Shown: piece by piece, positions 38,988-46,424 of the stretch
Position numbering within the stretch: position 1 is the first letter of the stretch
How the letters are laid out: each line of letters opens with the position of its first letter
Assembly: GCF_014204915.1 (NCBI RefSeq)
Contig: NZ_JACHMH010000001.1
Coordinates: 5,915,501 to 5,979,500 of the forward strand
Source: Crossiella cryophila
Lineage (GTDB): Bacteria; Actinomycetota; Actinomycetes; Mycobacteriales; Pseudonocardiaceae
Direction of reading: 5' to 3'
Length of the DNA stretch: 64,000 nucleotides
Translations under genes and position numbers: made by a program
The notes under the pieces: generated by a model
Told to the model about the DNA's origin: nothing
Databases searched by the model: none
The model's input: the letters and a program-made list of their open reading frames with translations, nothing else

Positions 38988-39947
38988 TCAGCCGGCCAGT
39001 TCGTCGGTACGGGACAGCCAGCTTCGGTAGACCGGGGCCTGGTCCGCCTTGGCCCAGTAGGCGCGGATCGCGCTGCTGACCAGGGTGTCGGTCAGCGGGG
39101 TCAGGGGACTGTCGGTGCGGAAGGCGAGGATGTGGCGGAAGTCCGGGCGGGCGCCGGCGAAGGGGCGGACCGAGATGCCCTCCTCCAGGCGGAAGGTGGC
39201 TTGGGCGAGCATGACGCCCAGGCCGCGGCGGAGGAATTCGCGGGCGTTGAAGCTGTCCAGGCGGTAGGCGATGCGGGGGATGAAACCGGCATTGGCACAG
39301 ATGCCGCGGAGGTATTCGGCGCAGCGGATTTCCAGGCCCTGGGGGAGGATCCAGTTCTCCTCGGAAAGGTCTGCCAGGGAGATCTCGAATTCGTTTGCTA
39401 GCGAATGTCCTGTTGCGACGGCGATGAACAGCGGCTCGGTGGCGATGGTGTGCACCGTCACGCCCGGCGGACGGTCCAGGGGCATGCCAGGGTGCTCGGC
39501 AAGCACACCCAGGTCCGCCGCGCCACCCGCCAGAAGTTCCATCGCGGTCTGGCCGGAACGTTCCTGCCGCAGGGTGATGTCGGCCTCGGGGGCCAGTTCG
39601 TGCAGATGTTCGGTGATCGGACCCGGCAGCGGGGTCGGGTGGGCCACCACGCGGATCCGGGCCGGGCCGTCGGACAGTGGAGCGCCGTGCTGGCGGGCCT
39701 CCTGGATCAGCTCGTCCACCGAGGGCACCAGGACCCGTACCCGTTGCACCACCAACTCGCCCAGCGCGGTCGGACGGGTTCCGTTGCGGTCGCGGTGGAA
39801 CAGCATGCCGCCGAAGGCGCGTTCCAGCCGCTGCAGCTGGCGGGTCAGGGCCGGCTGGGTCAGGCCGAGCCTGGTGGCCGCGCCGCTGAGACTGCCCGCC
39901 TCGCTGATGGCCCCAATCATCCGCAGGTGCCGGATCTCCACGTCCAT
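38988..39947 (-). CDS. LysR-family regulator of the isocyanide operon
   Basis: A 319-residue regulator. The N-terminal winged helix is EIRHLRMIGAISEAGSLSGAATRLGLTQPALTRQLQRLE (about residues 4-42), and the remainder is the two-lobed effector domain (RIRVVAHPTPLPGPITEHLHE onward). The ATG at 39947 gives the normal N-terminus; a longer frame to 40028 adds unrelated residues. It is divergent from the isocyanide synthase gene with 122 bp between starts, the classical LysR arrangement, so it probably controls that operon. Confidence 0.92.
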   Translation of the reverse strand: MDVEIRHLRMIGAISEAGSLSGAATRLGLTQPALTRQLQRLERAFGGMLFHRDRNGTRPTALGELVVQRVRVLVPSVDELIQEARQHGAPLSDGPARIRVVAHPTPLPGPITEHLHELAPEADITLRQERSGQTAMELLAGGAADLGVLAEHPGMPLDRPPGVTVHTIATEPLFIAVATGHSLANEFEISLADLSEENWILPQGLEIRCAEYLRGICANAGFIPRIAYRLDSFNAREFLRRGLGVMLAQATFRLEEGISVRPFAGARPDFRHILAFRTDSPLTPLTDTLVSSAIRAYWAKADQAPVYRSWLSRTDELAG

Positions 39948-40011
39948 GATCTCGATGCTAGGACCCGCTGACCTGGCCGCGTAGCCGCTGATCGTCCCCT
40001 GACCGGCCCAA

Positions 40012-40067
40012 CCATGTTCTGCGGTCATGGCGAGGTGTCAGTGGCCCCCGCCGAATTGTTCAAATTC
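40012..40067. promoter_or_regulatory. Divergent control region of LysR and isocyanide operons
   Basis: Two dyads: CCATG-N9-CATGG (40012-40030) and GAATT-GTTCA-AATTC (40053-40067). The second is in an A+T-rich patch immediately before the isocyanide synthase ATG and may overlap its promoter. Either could be the LysR site. Confidence 0.5.
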
Positions 40068-40069
40068 TA

Positions 40070-41020
40070 ATGAGTTGCATGTTGTCCTCCACGACGCCGG
40101 CGCGGCTGGCCACGCGGGTGCTCGAACTTGTGCTGGCGCACCAGCGGAAAGCACGCAATGGCGGGCCGTGCGGACAGAGTCCGTGCCCCCGGTGCCTTTC
40201 CGCGCACGTGCCCGCGGTGATCCGGGCAATTGGGCGGAACCAGCCGATTCAGTTCGTACTGCCCGCCTTTCCGGCCAAATCACCCAACCGGGACAAGGTC
40301 CTCGGCCACCTCCCCGACCTGGCCGAGGAACTCGCAGTCGGCTTCCTCAGCGACCTGTGCGCCGACTTGACCGAGTTGTACCCACCGGGCGCCCGGCTCA
40401 CCATCTGCTCCGACGGCCGGGTCTTCGGCGACCTGATCGGCGTGCCGGACGAGGAGATCACCGCCTACCAGCAGGAGATGGCCGCGCTCATCCGCGCAAC
40501 CGGTTCGGACCGGCTCGATCTGTACACATTGGACGATTACGCGCCCGGTTCATGCCCGGAATCACTGCGCCGCCTGCTCGACGCGGAGTACACCGAACCG
40601 ATCGCCGACCTGCGTGCGCGGATCGGGGCCGACGCCGACCTGCGCGCCATGTACCTCGGCATCGTCCGCTTCCTGCTGGAGGACCGATACGGCCCCGGTT
40701 ACTCGGGCACCCGCTCGGCACTGCAACGGGAAAGCCGCCAACGCGCCTACGGCGTGGTCGCCCGAAGCCGGGCCTGGGGCGATCTGGTCGGCGCCCGGTT
40801 CCCGGACGCGGTACGGCTGTCCATCCACCCGCAGCCCTGCGGCGCGGCCAAACTCGGCCTGCTGCTCGGCCGCACCCCGGACGCCTGGCTCACGCCCTGG
40901 CACGCGGTGGCGGTGCACGAGCCCGGCGGTTTCACCCTGATGAAGCGGATCGAGGCCGAACAACTGGGTGCGCGGCTCGTACACCGGGGCGGTCGACCCA
41001 GCCACTACGTCCTGCCATGA
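40070..41020 (+). CDS. Isocyanide synthase (IsnA/PvcA/DIT1 family)
   Basis: A 316-residue protein of the PvcA/DIT1 family. Recognisable blocks are QFVLPAFPAKSPNRDKVLG (61-79), ARLTICSDGRVFGD (108-121) and the C-terminal HPQPCGAAKLGLLLGR near 250. These enzymes convert the amino group of tyrosine or tryptophan to an isocyanide using ribulose-5-phosphate. The ATG at 40070 has no ribosome binding site and may be leaderless; ATG 40079 is an alternative. It precedes an Fe/alpha-ketoglutarate oxygenase and two glycosyltransferases. Amino acid preference cannot be told from sequence alone. Confidence 0.9.
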   Translation: MSCMLSSTTPARLATRVLELVLAHQRKARNGGPCGQSPCPRCLSAHVPAVIRAIGRNQPIQFVLPAFPAKSPNRDKVLGHLPDLAEELAVGFLSDLCADLTELYPPGARLTICSDGRVFGDLIGVPDEEITAYQQEMAALIRATGSDRLDLYTLDDYAPGSCPESLRRLLDAEYTEPIADLRARIGADADLRAMYLGIVRFLLEDRYGPGYSGTRSALQRESRQRAYGVVARSRAWGDLVGARFPDAVRLSIHPQPCGAAKLGLLLGRTPDAWLTPWHAVAVHEPGGFTLMKRIEAEQLGARLVHRGGRPSHYVLP

Positions 41021-41328
41021 GCGGCCATCTCGCCACCGCGTCCGATTCCGGCCACCACTTCGCCGGCACGTCCTGCGTCAACCCGCGGTCTCGCAACCAC
41101 GTCCTGCCCAGGCAGGGTCACCGCGTCCGGCTCTGGTCCCTGCCTCGCCGTCGTGCCCTGCCCTGCCTTCACGGCACCGTCGTGTCCTCGCCCCGGTCCT
41201 TGTCGCGCGACCGTCTCCTGTCCTGGTCCCTGCCTCGCCACCACGTCCTGCCCTGACCCCTGCCCCGACCTTCGCGGCTGACCTGCCCGCTCCGACCGTC
41301 ATTGCCCCGTTCAAGGAGCACAACCGCC
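41021..41328 (+). other. 308-bp spacer with imperfect direct repeats inside the isonitrile operon
   Basis: No ORF with a protein-like sequence. GCCACTACGTCCTGCCATGA, the last 20 bases of the isocyanide synthase gene, recurs at 41237-41256 with two changes. CTGGTCCCTGCCTCGCC occurs at 41133-41149 and 41223-41239, and CCACGTCCTGCCC at 41097-41109 and 41241-41253. The spacer ends at the AAGGAG ribosome binding site of the oxygenase gene. Whether it holds an attenuator or is slippage debris is not clear. Confidence 0.65.
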
Positions 41329-42207
41329 ATGACGAACCTCGCCCTCGACCTGCCCGGCGCCACCGCCACCGCGCTGGATCCGGTCGGCCTGCTCATCGAA
41401 CCGACCGGTTCCGGCCAGGACCCGCGCCGGTTGCCGGTGGGTCTGCTGCGTGAACTGGCCCGGACGCACCACCTGTTGCTGCTGCGTGGATTCGCCTCCT
41501 TCGCCGGTCCGGAGGAACTGGCCGCGTGGAGCGAGACCTGGGGCGAGATCATGATGTGGCCGTTCGGTGCGGTGCTCGAACTCATCGAGGCCGAGGCTCC
41601 CGCCGACCACATCTTCGACCACTCCTACGTGCCACTGCACTGGGACGGCATGTACCGGCCCTATATCCCGGAATTCCAGGTGTTCCACTGTGTCAGCGCG
41701 CCCGGTGGCGGCCAGGGTGGGGCGACCACCTTCTGTGACAGCGCGAGGATGCTGGCGCACACCTCGTCGGCCAGCCTCGAACGCTGGTCGCGGGTCGAGG
41801 TGACCTACCGCATTCCCAACCTGAGCCACTATGGCGGCCAGGCCGTCTCGCCACTGGTCGTGCCACATCCGCGCACGGGCGAGCCGACCATGCGCTACAA
41901 CGAGCCGCCGCGTGCCGACGACGACACCTTCCGCAACCGGCCCGAGCAAGCCTTCGCCGGACTGCCGGACAAGGAAGTGCCCGCGCTGCTGACCGAACTG
42001 CATGCGGCCACCCATGATCCGCGCTGGTACTACGAGCACACCTGGCAGGAGGGTGACCTCGTCATCGCGGACAACTACACGCTGCTGCACGGGCGGACCG
42101 CGTTCACCCACCGCGCGCCGCGGCACATTCGCCGGGTGCACGTGCTCGGGGAACCGCCGTTCCGCAACCCCGCGGGTCCTGACGTGGAGCGGAACGAGTC
42201 CAGGTGA
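41329..42207 (+). CDS. PvcB/TauD-like Fe(II)/alpha-ketoglutarate oxygenase
   Basis: A 292-residue dioxygenase. The iron triad is His104-x-Asp106 (PLHWDGMY) and His254 (TLLHGRTAF), with a following Arg cluster (APRHIRRVHV) for alpha-ketoglutarate. Family members that act with isocyanide synthases desaturate and decarboxylate the side chain to give a vinyl isonitrile. AAGGAG lies eleven bases before the ATG. The stop overlaps the GTG start of the next gene (GTGA), so the glycosyltransferases are coupled to it. Confidence 0.9.
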   Translation: MTNLALDLPGATATALDPVGLLIEPTGSGQDPRRLPVGLLRELARTHHLLLLRGFASFAGPEELAAWSETWGEIMMWPFGAVLELIEAEAPADHIFDHSYVPLHWDGMYRPYIPEFQVFHCVSAPGGGQGGATTFCDSARMLAHTSSASLERWSRVEVTYRIPNLSHYGGQAVSPLVVPHPRTGEPTMRYNEPPRADDDTFRNRPEQAFAGLPDKEVPALLTELHAATHDPRWYYEHTWQEGDLVIADNYTLLHGRTAFTHRAPRHIRRVHVLGEPPFRNPAGPDVERNESR

Positions 42208-44081
42208 ACCGTAACACAATCGCTGTCACGGTTCTGACGCTGGCCACCTTCGGACTGACGTTCTGGGCCGCGGGCTCGGTGGAACCGCACTACTACTACA
42301 CCGTCGCGGTGCGCGCGATGAGCGCCGACTGGCACGCCTTCCTCTACGGGGCGATCGATCCGGCGGGCACGCTCACCGTGGACAAGATCCCTGGCGCGCT
42401 GTGGGCGCAGGCGCTGTCGGTGCGGCTGTTCGGCTTCCACGACTGGGCATTGCTGCTTCCCCAGGCGCTCGCGGCCGCGGCCACCGTGCCGCTGCTGCAC
42501 GACGCGGTGCGCCGCTGGGCCGGGACCCGGGCCGGACTGCTCGCCGCGCTGGTGTTCGCGCTCACCCCGATCACCGTGGTGCTGGCCAGGGTCAACATCC
42601 CGGACACACTTCTGGTGCTCGCTCTGGTGGGTGGCGCGCACGCCACGATTCTTGCGCTACGATCGGTGCGGACCTGGCCACTGATCCTGGCCGGGATCTG
42701 GGTGGGACTGGGTTTCCAGGTCAAGCTCGGGCAGGCTCTGCTGGTGTTGCCCGCGCTGGCGATTCCCTACCTGGTAAAGGCTTCCGTGCCGGTGAGGGCA
42801 CGGATCGCGCGGGTGCTGCTGGCCGGTCTCACGACCGCGGTGGTGGCCTGCGCCTGGCTGGTGCTGGTGGCGTTGACCCCCGCCGCACATCGGCCTTATG
42901 TGGATGGCAGCACCGCGAACTCGGTGTGGGATATGGCCTTCCGGTACAACGGACTCGGCCGGTTCGTCCACACCGACGCCGCCTCCGGACAGGTGGCGAG
43001 CTTCCTCGCGGACTTCGGTGGTCCGCCCGGCCTCGGGCGGCTGGCGAATGCCGAACTGGGGACGCAGATCGCCTGGCTGTTGCCGTTCGCGGTACTCGCG
43101 CTGGTGGCCGGACTGGTGTTCGGTCGTCGGCACGGGTCCACAGTGGACGGATGGCTGCTGTGGGGACTGTGGCTGGGCACGCACGCGGTGGTGTTCAGCG
43201 CGGCCACCGGTATCCACCCGTACTACGCGGCCGCCCTGACCCCGGCGATCGCGGCGCTGTCCGGCGCCGGCCTGGTGCTGCTGGCCAGACTGTGGTCGGC
43301 GGGCGGCACAACGGCCTGGTTGCTGCCACTGGGTGTGGCGGTGACCGGGGCGTGGGCGGCGGTGCTGTCGGCACGGGCCGTGGAACCCTCGGCCGCGGCC
43401 GAGGGCCTGCCCGGACTGACCGTGCTGGTGCTCGGGCTGACCACGGTGACGGTGGTCGTGCTGGTGGTGGGTGCGCTGCACCCGTTGCCGCGCTTGCGGA
43501 TCCCGGCGATCGGCGGCGCGGTGCTGGTGCTGCTGGCCGCACCGGCGGTCTGGTCGGTCGAGGCGTCCGGGAAGCCGTTCCCGAGCCTGACCGCGCTCAA
43601 CCCCGTCGCGGGGCCGGGCAATCCACTGCCCGCCGCGGGGATGGCCGCCATGCACGGGTTGCCGCCGGACACCCCGTTGCCGCCGGAGCTGGGTGACATG
43701 CACATGGTCACCCCGAACCGGGGGCTGCTCAGCTATGTCGGACAGCGGCACCGCGGGGAGAAGTACCTGCTCGCCGTGCCGACCGTGAACACCGCGGCGC
43801 CCTACCTGCGCCTCGGGCACAGCGTGCTGCCCATGGGCGGTTTCACCGGCGCGGCCGGGGTGCCCGCACTGTCCGAACTGGACGCGCTGGTGCGTACCCG
43901 CGCGCTGCGCTTCGTCATGATCGGCGGTTTCCACGGCGGCATGGGCGGACCGATCGCCCAGGAACGGCAGCGGTGGGTCGCCGAGCATTGCCTCGCCGTG
44001 CCCTTCGCCGACTACCAGGGCCCGAGTGGTCCGCCCGATGCCCCGGAAACGCTCTACGACTGTCAGGCGGGTGCCCGATGA
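42204..44081 (+). CDS. GT39/ArnT-like polytopic glycosyltransferase
   Basis: A 625-residue GT-C enzyme with about 11-13 membrane helices. The first extracytoplasmic loop carries EPHYYYTVAVRAMSADW and the family-type DKIPGALWAQALSVRLFGFHDW; a C-terminal soluble domain follows from about residue 470 (VGQRHRGEKYLLAV, ALRFVMIGGFHGG). Such enzymes move a sugar from a polyprenyl-phosphate carrier to an acceptor on the outer face of the membrane. Translational coupling (GTGA with the oxygenase, ATGA with the next GT) makes a role in glycosylating the isonitrile product or a linked envelope molecule likely. Confidence 0.85.
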   Translation: MNRNTIAVTVLTLATFGLTFWAAGSVEPHYYYTVAVRAMSADWHAFLYGAIDPAGTLTVDKIPGALWAQALSVRLFGFHDWALLLPQALAAAATVPLLHDAVRRWAGTRAGLLAALVFALTPITVVLARVNIPDTLLVLALVGGAHATILALRSVRTWPLILAGIWVGLGFQVKLGQALLVLPALAIPYLVKASVPVRARIARVLLAGLTTAVVACAWLVLVALTPAAHRPYVDGSTANSVWDMAFRYNGLGRFVHTDAASGQVASFLADFGGPPGLGRLANAELGTQIAWLLPFAVLALVAGLVFGRRHGSTVDGWLLWGLWLGTHAVVFSAATGIHPYYAAALTPAIAALSGAGLVLLARLWSAGGTTAWLLPLGVAVTGAWAAVLSARAVEPSAAAEGLPGLTVLVLGLTTVTVVVLVVGALHPLPRLRIPAIGGAVLVLLAAPAVWSVEASGKPFPSLTALNPVAGPGNPLPAAGMAAMHGLPPDTPLPPELGDMHMVTPNRGLLSYVGQRHRGEKYLLAVPTVNTAAPYLRLGHSVLPMGGFTGAAGVPALSELDALVRTRALRFVMIGGFHGGMGGPIAQERQRWVAEHCLAVPFADYQGPSGPPDAPETLYDCQAGAR

Positions 44082-45298
44082 CCGAACTGCCCCTCCCGTT
44101 GCGCAGGCTGGCCCGGTACGCGGTGCCGATCGCGGTCGGCTCGGCGGCGTTGTTCGTGACGCTGGCCGCGGTGCACTGGGTGATCACCGGATACGTGGTG
44201 ATGTCGGACTTCTGGGACCTCAAGGTCTACCGGGCGGGCGGCGAGGCGGTGCTGACCGGGGAGGCGCTGTACCCGGGCAAGATCGCGGGCGGCATGTTCG
44301 CCTTCACCTACCCGCCGTTCGCGGCCTTGTTGTTCGTGCCGCTGGCCTTCGGGCCCGAGGTGCTGGGGCAGTACCTGGTGTTCCCGGCCAACCTCGCGGC
44401 GCTGGCCGCGGTGGTGTGGGTGGGGCTGCGGGCGATCGGCGTGCCGCGCGGGCGGGAGCTGGGGCAGCTGACCCTGGGGCTGACCGCGCTGCTGTTCTGG
44501 CTGGAACCGGTGTCCTGGACCGCCTACCTCGGCCAGGTCAACGTGCTGCTGATGGCCCTGGTGATGGTGGACCTGCTGCACCTGCCGGAGCGCTGGCGCG
44601 GGGTGGGTGTGGGCATCGCGGCCGGGATCAAGATCGTGCCCGCCTTCTTCATCCTGCACCTGCTGCTGACCCGCCAGTACCGGGCGGCCGCCACGGCCAC
44701 CGTGACCGCGGCCGGGACCGTGCTGGTGAGCCTGGTGTCGCTGCCGGGGGACACGTTGCGGTTCTGGACCGGCACGTTCGCGGTGACCGAGCGGGTCGGC
44801 GACGTGGAGAACCAGATGAACCAGTCGCTCAACGGGATGCTGTCCCGGATCCTCGGCGTGGACAGCACCCCGCTCTGGCTGTGGCTGCCCCTGGCCGCGC
44901 TCACCGCGGCGGCCGGGCTGTGGGTGGCCCGGCGGGCACAGCGGGACGGTCGGCTGCTGCTGGCGATCTCGGTGGTCGGGCTGACCGCGGCCATGGTGTC
45001 GCCGATCTCCTGGAGTCACCACTGGGTGTGGTTCGTGCCGTTGCTGATCGCGCTGCTGCCGCTGCTGGTGGACGGGGTGGCGGTGCGCGCGGTCGGGGTG
45101 TTCGCCGCGGTGCTGAGTTTCGCCTGGCCGATGCACTTCCTCAACGGCCACCGGATGGACCTGCCGCCGCTGGGGCTGATCGGGCTGCCGACCGCCGGCG
45201 GGCTGGAACTGCTCTACCAGAACGCCTATCCGTTGGGGTTCCTGGTCATCCTGGCGTTCGCAGCTCGGCGAGCAGGCGTGCGAACACCGGTTCGGTGA
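44078..45298 (+). CDS. GT87 (DUF2029) mannosyltransferase-like polytopic protein
   Basis: A 406-residue GT-C enzyme with about ten membrane helices, similar to PimE-type alpha-1,2-mannosyltransferases. FWDLKVYRAGGEAVLTGEALYP near residues 47-68 supplies the conserved loop Asp, FAFTYPPFAALLFVPLA follows, and SPISWSHHWVWFVPLL near 308-323 is the other signature. It uses polyprenyl-phosphate-mannose or a similar donor. The ATG overlaps the stop of the GT39 gene, and the 3' end overlaps the convergent exonuclease gene by 53 bp. Confidence 0.86.
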   Translation: MTELPLPLRRLARYAVPIAVGSAALFVTLAAVHWVITGYVVMSDFWDLKVYRAGGEAVLTGEALYPGKIAGGMFAFTYPPFAALLFVPLAFGPEVLGQYLVFPANLAALAAVVWVGLRAIGVPRGRELGQLTLGLTALLFWLEPVSWTAYLGQVNVLLMALVMVDLLHLPERWRGVGVGIAAGIKIVPAFFILHLLLTRQYRAAATATVTAAGTVLVSLVSLPGDTLRFWTGTFAVTERVGDVENQMNQSLNGMLSRILGVDSTPLWLWLPLAALTAAAGLWVARRAQRDGRLLLAISVVGLTAAMVSPISWSHHWVWFVPLLIALLPLLVDGVAVRAVGVFAAVLSFAWPMHFLNGHRMDLPPLGLIGLPTAGGLELLYQNAYPLGFLVILAFAARRAGVRTPVR

Positions 45299-46424
45299 TG
45301 ATCGGGATCTGGTAGTCGCGGGCCTTGCGTGCCTTGGTGGACAGGGAGTCCGGGTCCGCGGCGACCACGACCTTGGTCCAGCGGCAGACGTTCTCCGGGT
45401 GGGTGACCAGGCCGGCGGCGGCCGCGTGGGCCTGGAGCTGCTCGCGGGGTTGGTCGGTCTGGCCGGTGAAGGCGATGCGGTCGCCGGGATCCAGGCGGAA
45501 TCCGGCGGGCAGCTCCGCGTCGGTGGGGTAGCCGCTGGCAGGGGGGTTGGGGACCGCGGCGGAGTGGTGTTCGGCGGGGGAGCGGGGGGCGACGGAGGAA
45601 CGGGTGTCGGCGGGGGAATGGTGATTGGCGGCGGAGAAGGGCGGACGGGTCTGGGGCGAGGAACTGCGCGGGAATGGTGCCGCGGGGTCAGGGGCAGCGG
45701 CAGCGCCGTGCTGGGCTGGGGCAGTGGCGGAGCCGGGCGCCGGGTTGGTGCGGTACGCGGCCGTGTTCCGGGTCGTTCGGCGGTAGGTGGGGTCGCCGTC
45801 CCGGCGGGGACGGCGGGCCACCGGCTGGCCGGGCGGGCTCCGGTGCACCACCGGGGTGTCCAGGGCGGGGATGAACGGCCACGGGCGGGAGCGGGCCGCT
45901 TCCAGGTGCGGGGACCAGTCGTCGTGGCCCGCGGCGAGGTAGTGCGCGAGCAGGGCCGCGGTGGCGCGGGCGTCGTGCAGGGCCGAGTGCGCGTTGGTCA
46001 GCGGGATGCCCGCGGCGGCGCAGCAGGCGGCCAGGTTGCGGCGATCGGTGGTGAGGTAGCGCGGGGCCAGGGTCATGGTGCACAGGCCGTCGAGGGCCTC
46101 GGGCGGGGGCAGGACGCCCGCGGCGGTCAGTTCGGCGTTGAGGAACCTGGCGTCGAAGGTCAGGTTGTGCGCGACCAGGACCCGGCCGGCCAGGCGGGTG
46201 ACCAGGTCGCCGGTGATCTGCTCGAAGGTGGGCGCGGGCAGGACCTCGCGGGTGGTGATCCGGTGGATGTGCTGCGGGCCCAGGTCACGGCGCGGGTTGA
46301 CCAGGGTGCACCACTCGCCGGTGATGGCGCCCTGGGCGTCGAGCTGGACCACGGCGATCTCGATGACCCGGTCGCGGCCTGCGGCGAAGCCCGTGGTCTC
46401 GACGTCCACCACCGCGAAGCCCAC
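45246..46424 (-). CDS. DEDDh exonuclease (DnaQ-like) with C-terminal BRCT domain
   Basis: A 392-residue protein. The exonuclease occupies residues 1-165: DVET (Asp7, Glu9), HNLTFDARF (Asp91) and HSALHDARA (His146, Asp151). A Pro/Ser/Arg-rich linker of about 130 residues follows, then a BRCT domain from about 305 (GDRIAFTGQTDQPREQLQAHAAAAGLVTHPENVCRWTKVVVAADP is the characteristic region, in part). It resembles the stand-alone epsilon-like exonucleases of actinobacteria. The linker is variable and probably disordered. A repair role is inferred. Confidence 0.88.
   Translation of the reverse strand: MGFAVVDVETTGFAAGRDRVIEIAVVQLDAQGAITGEWCTLVNPRRDLGPQHIHRITTREVLPAPTFEQITGDLVTRLAGRVLVAHNLTFDARFLNAELTAAGVLPPPEALDGLCTMTLAPRYLTTDRRNLAACCAAAGIPLTNAHSALHDARATAALLAHYLAAGHDDWSPHLEAARSRPWPFIPALDTPVVHRSPPGQPVARRPRRDGDPTYRRTTRNTAAYRTNPAPGSATAPAQHGAAAAPDPAAPFPRSSSPQTRPPFSAANHHSPADTRSSVAPRSPAEHHSAAVPNPPASGYPTDAELPAGFRLDPGDRIAFTGQTDQPREQLQAHAAAAGLVTHPENVCRWTKVVVAADPDSLSTKARKARDYQIPIITEPVFARLLAELRTPG

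Follow-up and report, generated by a model that had tools for sequence, protein, structure and literature searches.

Gene content and organisation of the locus

The window, a 64-kb stretch of the Crossiella cryophila genome (a 10.06-Mb single contig), carries at positions 38988-45298 four plus-strand genes in the order isnA-isnB-GT39-GT87, together with a divergent LysR gene. The features of this segment are the following:

38988..39947, minus strand: LysR-type regulator gene (Pfam HTH_1 and LysR_substrate), divergent from isnA; the frame is open up to 40028, with a likely start, MDVEI, at 39947
40012..40030, no strand: candidate LysR operator between LysR and isnA, an inverted repeat CCATG-N9-CATGG with T-N11-A inside
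40070..41020, plus strand: isnA, isonitrile synthase of the PvcA/IsnA family (DIT1_PvcA, 247 bits)
41021..41328, plus strand: isnA-isnB gap of 308 bp
41329..42207, plus strand: isnB, Fe/2OG desaturase with a PIsnB-type (vinyl isonitrile) signature (TauD, 158 bits)
42204..44081, plus strand: GT39-like GT-C glycosyltransferase (PMT_2 and YkcB_C; predicted ArnT fold; C-terminal globular domain)
44078..45298, plus strand: GT87, PimE-like GT-C glycosyltransferase (GT87 domain, 175 bits)

The LysR, IsnA and PvcB-like genes, which the original prediction had read as a vinyl-isonitrile unit, were confirmed by their Pfam matches and by residues R110 and N191 of IsnB. IsnA covers profile positions 3-268 of the 273 of DIT1_PvcA and matches the PvcA structure (PDB 3e59) with an E-value of 7.7e-80, which places it in the IsnA/PvcA family. 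Against NCBIfam NF045653 (L-tyrosine isonitrile synthase PvcA) it scores 278 bits, below the 600-bit equivalog cut-off, so that tyrosine specificity of IsnA is putative. IsnB aligns with PvcB (PDB 3eat) and with PIsnB (PDB 7tcl); the Fe ligands of PIsnB are matched by its HWD and by the H of its LLHGR, while R110 and N191 occupy the positions of PIsnB K107 and N188. According to the excerpted text of PMC9467999 (2022), vinyl-isonitrile enzymes have K/R and N/H at these positions and isocyanoacrylate enzymes have L and C, and single mutations left the product unswitched. This signature supports the assignment of the window IsnB as a putative PIsnB-type vinyl-isonitrile enzyme. K/R110 and N191 are found in all seven IsnBs that are linked to the two glycosyltransferase (GT) genes; since most Streptomyces IsnBs from loci without the GTs carry K/R and N as well, the signature is silent on glycosylation.

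In the window isnB overlaps GT39 by GTGA and GT39 overlaps GT87 by ATGA, as judged from candidate start codons. The translational coupling that had been proposed for the glycosyltransferase genes thus holds for these two junctions, which recur in other genomes, but does not extend to isnA, from which isnB is separated by 308 bp, a distance that is 11-33 bp in the six remaining loci with this gene order. By eye the gap is C-rich and degenerately repetitive, and a tandem-repeat search of 40900-41400 returned only two weak units of 6 and 12 bp. At the other end of the unit, the 3′ end of GT87 (45246-45298) is overlapped by a convergent exonuclease-domain ORF (45246-46424). The inverted repeat at 40012-40030 is kept in all five aligned Crossiella intergenic regions, and the Kutzneria region is without it; it is a candidate for the LysR operator. 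Scans for sigma-70 promoters and terminators gave zero matches, such scans being uninformative for a high-GC actinomycete. Neither the four genes nor the flanking genes scanned include an exporter, and the unit itself contains no lipid-sugar synthase.

Distribution and inheritance of the gene order

The four-gene order, which the original prediction had proposed to look for in other genomes, is present in seven of 390 genomes of the family, the window counted, in three genera and three chromosomal settings. The carriers are three Crossiella genomes (the window, G188 and G185), Kutzneria viridogrisea DSM 43850, and three Allokutzneria genomes (sp. NRRL B-24872, A3M-2-11 and G081, the last placed here by its genus code, which is that of the other two). 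IsnA matches (E 1e-10) occur in 46 of the 390 genomes, seven of which have short matches only; the remaining 39 yielded 52 near-full copies. The window and 40 regions around such copies (one of 3.1 kb) were read, 11 copies of 43-49% identity being left aside, and the order was found in the window and six of the 40. At the isnB/GT39 junction the overlap measures 4 bp in six of the seven loci and 1 bp in Kutzneria, and at the GT39/GT87 junction it measures 4 bp in all seven (candidate starts throughout). These stop/start overlaps persist despite roughly 50-60% protein identity between genera. Apart from LysR, no flanking gene was common to the three genera, except for weak matches (27-38%) to other window ORFs, in a comparison whose simple ORF calling left out some genes, including the GT87 gene of the third Allokutzneria. 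A LysR orthologue adjoins isnA in four other Crossiella (83-98%) and in Kutzneria (53%), and the three Allokutzneria regions gave zero LysR matches at E 1e-6.

Beyond the carriers, isnA-isnB loci of Streptomyces and others share the order of these two genes, most Streptomyces loci share the IsnB signature, and some have a divergently oriented LysR gene with 37-40% identity; GT39 and GT87 are absent from the flanking DNA covered. A set of 69 named IsnA loci taken from GTDB genomes, some of them ending at contig ends, included three with complete GT39 and GT87 genes and one (SN42) with a GT87 remnant; at one further locus (L109) a distant GT87 (39%) lies 8 kb from IsnA. In a class-wide sample IsnA was detected (E 1e-30) in 14 of 394 genomes, the window's genome counted, and GT39 and GT87 were absent from the IsnA loci of the other 13 within about 1.5 kb of flank. 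Two Streptomyces loci (L077 and L093) have isnA-isnB followed by an HpaB-type hydroxylase gene, L077 also with an asparagine synthase gene. The window's genome has a second isnA (G000:C1:9136430-9137317) in a 19.5-kb region (L065, G000:C1:9127000-9146500) without an isnB match; it lies beside a P450 gene, an MFS gene and an import set of the FecCD/binding-protein/ABC kind, has related copies in four other Crossiella, and looks like a metallophore locus or a DIT1-DIT2-like isnA and P450 locus.

We compared the histories of the four proteins in trees, all built with a quick method; the IsnA and IsnB trees were made without duplicate genomes, matches shorter than 200 residues and named loci below 44% identity. 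The seven GT-linked copies form one clade in the trees of IsnB (55 rows, SH-aLRT 97), GT39 (43 rows, SH-aLRT 99) and GT87 (17 rows, SH-aLRT 97). Of the 43 rows in the tree of GT39, 36 are non-isonitrile proteins, mostly best unlinked matches, and 36 of all 43 are distinct; Kutzneria is represented there by a 312-residue fragment that arose from a split BLAST match, the gene itself being open throughout; in the GT87 tree 10 of the 17 rows are non-isonitrile, again mostly best unlinked matches. In the IsnA tree (80 rows), by contrast, the seven are not one clade and Allokutzneria stands apart. Monophyly of the seven together with Crossiella S99.2 and SN42 was rejected (p-AU 0.0019; 66 rows, after 14 far rows had been dropped). 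Given a single clade for each of IsnB, GT39 and GT87 but not for IsnA, isnB-GT39-GT87 is best described as one inherited module, and, going by the trees, isnA appears either to have changed partner or to have been met twice by the module. The unit as first proposed, which included isnA, is thus retained in its isnB-GT39-GT87 part, with isnA as the member that changes partner. A single origin of the whole four-gene unit including its isnA is rejected on the IsnA tree.

S99.2 and SN42, both draft assemblies, keep LysR and isnA at the corresponding position and have lost the module. In S99.2 isnA is intact (96% to that of the window), isnB and GT39 are gone from the locus and GT87 survives in pieces only; in SN42 (isnA 83%), the locus has lost isnB and GT39, and GT87 up to about residue 287. 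The loss sites lie just after isnA (loci L033 and L035). Since the breakpoints differ, and since the IsnA-tree sisters differ as well (the window and G188, respectively), we count two loss events. Among the matches listed, no close GT39 stands at another place in either genome (best E-values 1e-70 and 1e-79). S99.2 carries another isnA-isnB pair (L050). The isnA dN/dS is 0.12 for the window and S99.2 and 0.18 for SN42 and G188, which gives no sign of isnA decay, yet these distances cover time before the losses too.

The two glycosyltransferases and their relatives

The original prediction that both glycosyltransferases are GT-C enzymes of the lipid-linked-sugar type is supported by PimE residues in one and by an ArnT-fold model in the other. 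For the first, the family label GT39 is retained nominally: PMT_2 and YkcB_C are the only Pfam matches at E 0.001 and the best structural match of the predicted model is ArnT. The model is ArnT-like across residues 1-623, with helices to residue 455 followed by a mixed helix-strand domain to 625, and hydropathy, as distinct from predicted topology, gives 10 segments up to residue 446. The C-terminal globular domain would lie on the outer side.

GT-Cs proposed to mannosylate secondary metabolites outside the membrane from a polyprenyl-phosphomannose donor (Ram29, MppH/I, Tcp15, Dbv20, BifO/BifP) have been described; in the source excerpts Ram29 targets hydroxyphenylglycine in ramoplanin and BifP targets hydroxylysine residues in biffamycin. 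The Ram29-type layout, described there as roughly 10-14 TM segments within some 450 residues and then a C-terminal domain of around 150, is shared by GT39, whose membrane part is likewise followed by a C-terminal domain; the likeness noted here is one of layout. The aglycones of these enzymes, as excerpted, are peptides, whereas here the partner would be an isonitrile. By analogy, GT39 may transfer sugar from polyprenyl-phosphomannose to a metabolite, although sugars differ among ArnT-fold relatives.

GT87 matches PimE (9dm5) with an E-value of 4.6e-47 and is homologous to it along 312 aligned profile positions. In the excerpt of PMC12041525, D58 is the base of PimE, an alpha-1,2-mannosyltransferase, and Y92, Q163, K195, W319 and H322 are donor residues. 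The residues aligned to D58, Y62, Y92, Q163, K195, W319, H321 and H322 are kept in all seven linked GT87s, as is the acceptor contact D55. D160 and Y161, which in PimE lie beside the acceptor, are replaced in all seven (by Y or H, and by L), so that all seven are PimE-like without being PimE itself; the context of the window GT87, isonitrile biosynthesis, also differs from that of PimE. Ten unlinked GT87s keep most donor residues too and are likewise changed at D160/Y161. Because they share the pattern, these residues inform on the type of donor and not on the acceptor.

Among the matches listed, the window GT39 has seven matches of 61-100% identity in the 390 family genomes, all beside isnB, and the next stand at 48% (partial) and 47%. 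A concern from the outset was that the GT genes might be conserved elsewhere without isonitrile genes. No close GT39 (61% or more) was found elsewhere among the matches listed, but relatives at 48% or less are common, with 291 of 390 genomes matching at E 1e-60, the seven carriers included. The seven linked GT87s score 385-871 bits (51-100%), the next match listed scoring 333 bits (47%), and one unlinked 194-residue stretch reaches 53% identity with 176 bits; relatives at E 1e-40 occur in 237 of 390 genomes, again with the seven carriers. Up to three GT39 and up to four GT87 best candidates were scored per genome. On these similarity scores, GT87 sets the carriers apart less sharply than GT39.

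Two of the four nearest unlinked GT39 loci adjoin P450 genes: L206 also has tandem GT39s, a methyltransferase and an aminotransferase, and L208 has a GT2-GtrA synthase. Both are possible small clusters drawing on lipid-linked sugars.

Proposed pathway and alternative explanations

The rhabduscin glycosyltransferase is of the soluble type. Rhabduscin and byelyankacin clusters likewise combine IsnA and a vinyl-isonitrile IsnB with a glycosylated product (excerpts of PMC6386379 and PMC9467999), and rhabduscin, found at the bacterial surface and in supernatants, needs one GT gene (excerpt of PMC6386379). Where the rhabduscin cluster, as excerpted there, has a single GT gene, the window has two integral-membrane GT-C genes that overlap isnB and each other. 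Among the listed titles and abstract beginnings of the open-licence PMC literature we found no isonitrile cluster with membrane, mannosyl or GT-C glycosyltransferases, which is a weak negative. The claim of a new pathway variant is accordingly narrowed: since Ram29 and BifP, as excerpted, already act on secondary metabolites as lipid-linked-sugar GT-Cs, the novelty lies in the combination of such enzymes with isonitrile genes.

Considering the computed gene families, order and overlaps, the co-inheritance of isnB, GT39 and GT87, the IsnB signature, the PimE residues and the predicted ArnT fold, we think it fairly probable that the locus encodes one pathway, in which a vinyl isonitrile made from tyrosine receives, on the outer side of the membrane, a first sugar that is probably mannose and then a second one. 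From an aromatic amino acid, tyrosine being the likeliest, IsnA would make an isonitrile, and IsnB would then decarboxylate and desaturate it to a vinyl isonitrile, a small lipophilic phenol that, the unit being without an exporter, would pass the membrane itself and reach GT39. The ArnT-like core of GT39 would use a polyprenyl-phosphate donor to attach a sugar to the phenol, the obvious candidate acceptor of such a vinyl isonitrile, the closest precedent being Ram29 on hydroxyphenylglycine. GT87 would add a second sugar, by analogy with PimE an alpha-1,2-mannose, to give a disaccharide; mannose is suggested by the likeness to PimE and by what is described for ramoplanin and biffamycin. Through its sugars the reactive isonitrile would be kept outside, on the cell surface or close to it. 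In Crossiella and Kutzneria the unit would be under LysR control. We infer that the GT-C pair, co-inherited with isnB, acts on the IsnB product. Counting against the pathway reading are the incongruence of IsnA with the module, the two genomes that keep isnA alone, the lack of an exporter and of a lipid-sugar synthase in the unit, the variety of sugars used by ArnT-fold relatives and the IsnA score below the NF045653 cut-off.

The first two of these observations would suit a different IsnB substrate, namely a related phenol of the N-formyl-tyrosine or phloretic acid type, so that the glycosylated product would not be an isonitrile; characterised PIsnB takes such analogues in vitro (excerpt of PMC9467999). 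isnA nevertheless lies directly upstream of isnB in all seven loci, and we consider this substrate switch distinctly improbable. The association could also be fortuitous, the pair being a bystander envelope GT operon that lies behind isnB by chance, as the commonness of GT39 and GT87 relatives (291 and 237 of the 390 genomes) might suggest; the conservation of the overlaps, the clade-specific co-occurrence and the fact that two genomes have lost the genes together speak against it, and it is disfavoured as very improbable.

A further proposal leaves the pairing intact and changes the product: the GTs would build a glycolipid or envelope glycan that carries the isonitrile as a cap or anchor, instead of a small glycoside being released. 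The PimE product is an envelope glycolipid in the excerpt of PMC12041525, GT-Cs of the YkcB class are described in the sources excerpted as modifying cell-wall polymers, no exporter is found among the four genes and scanned flanks, and in Allokutzneria B-24872 the gene after GT87 is of an acyltransferase family and has a counterpart in A3M-2-11. On the other hand, no further gene is common to all three settings, as far as the simple ORF caller, with its missed genes including GT87 of the third Allokutzneria, can tell; we regard a glycan-borne isonitrile as unlikely, and favour the glycosylated vinyl isonitrile described above.

A broader reading of that pathway, which we put forward tentatively, is of two-compartment isonitriles, in which the vinyl isonitrile would be made inside and a di-sugar added outside by two lipid-linked-sugar GT-Cs; the product would be retained at the surface, possibly anchored to lipid or glycan, and could form a metal-binding or enzyme-inhibiting coat. 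The compound could be sought in Kutzneria viridogrisea DSM 43850 and Allokutzneria sp. NRRL B-24872. The GT87 enzyme gains a candidate role beyond envelope lipids, and, if the proposed pathway is correct, isnB-GT39-GT87 would be a compact module for sugar-capped isonitriles. Sugar attachment outside the membrane would then be added to the few known routes to glycosylated isonitriles, and would hint at a way in which the producing cell avoids having a metal-binding isonitrile in its cytoplasm.
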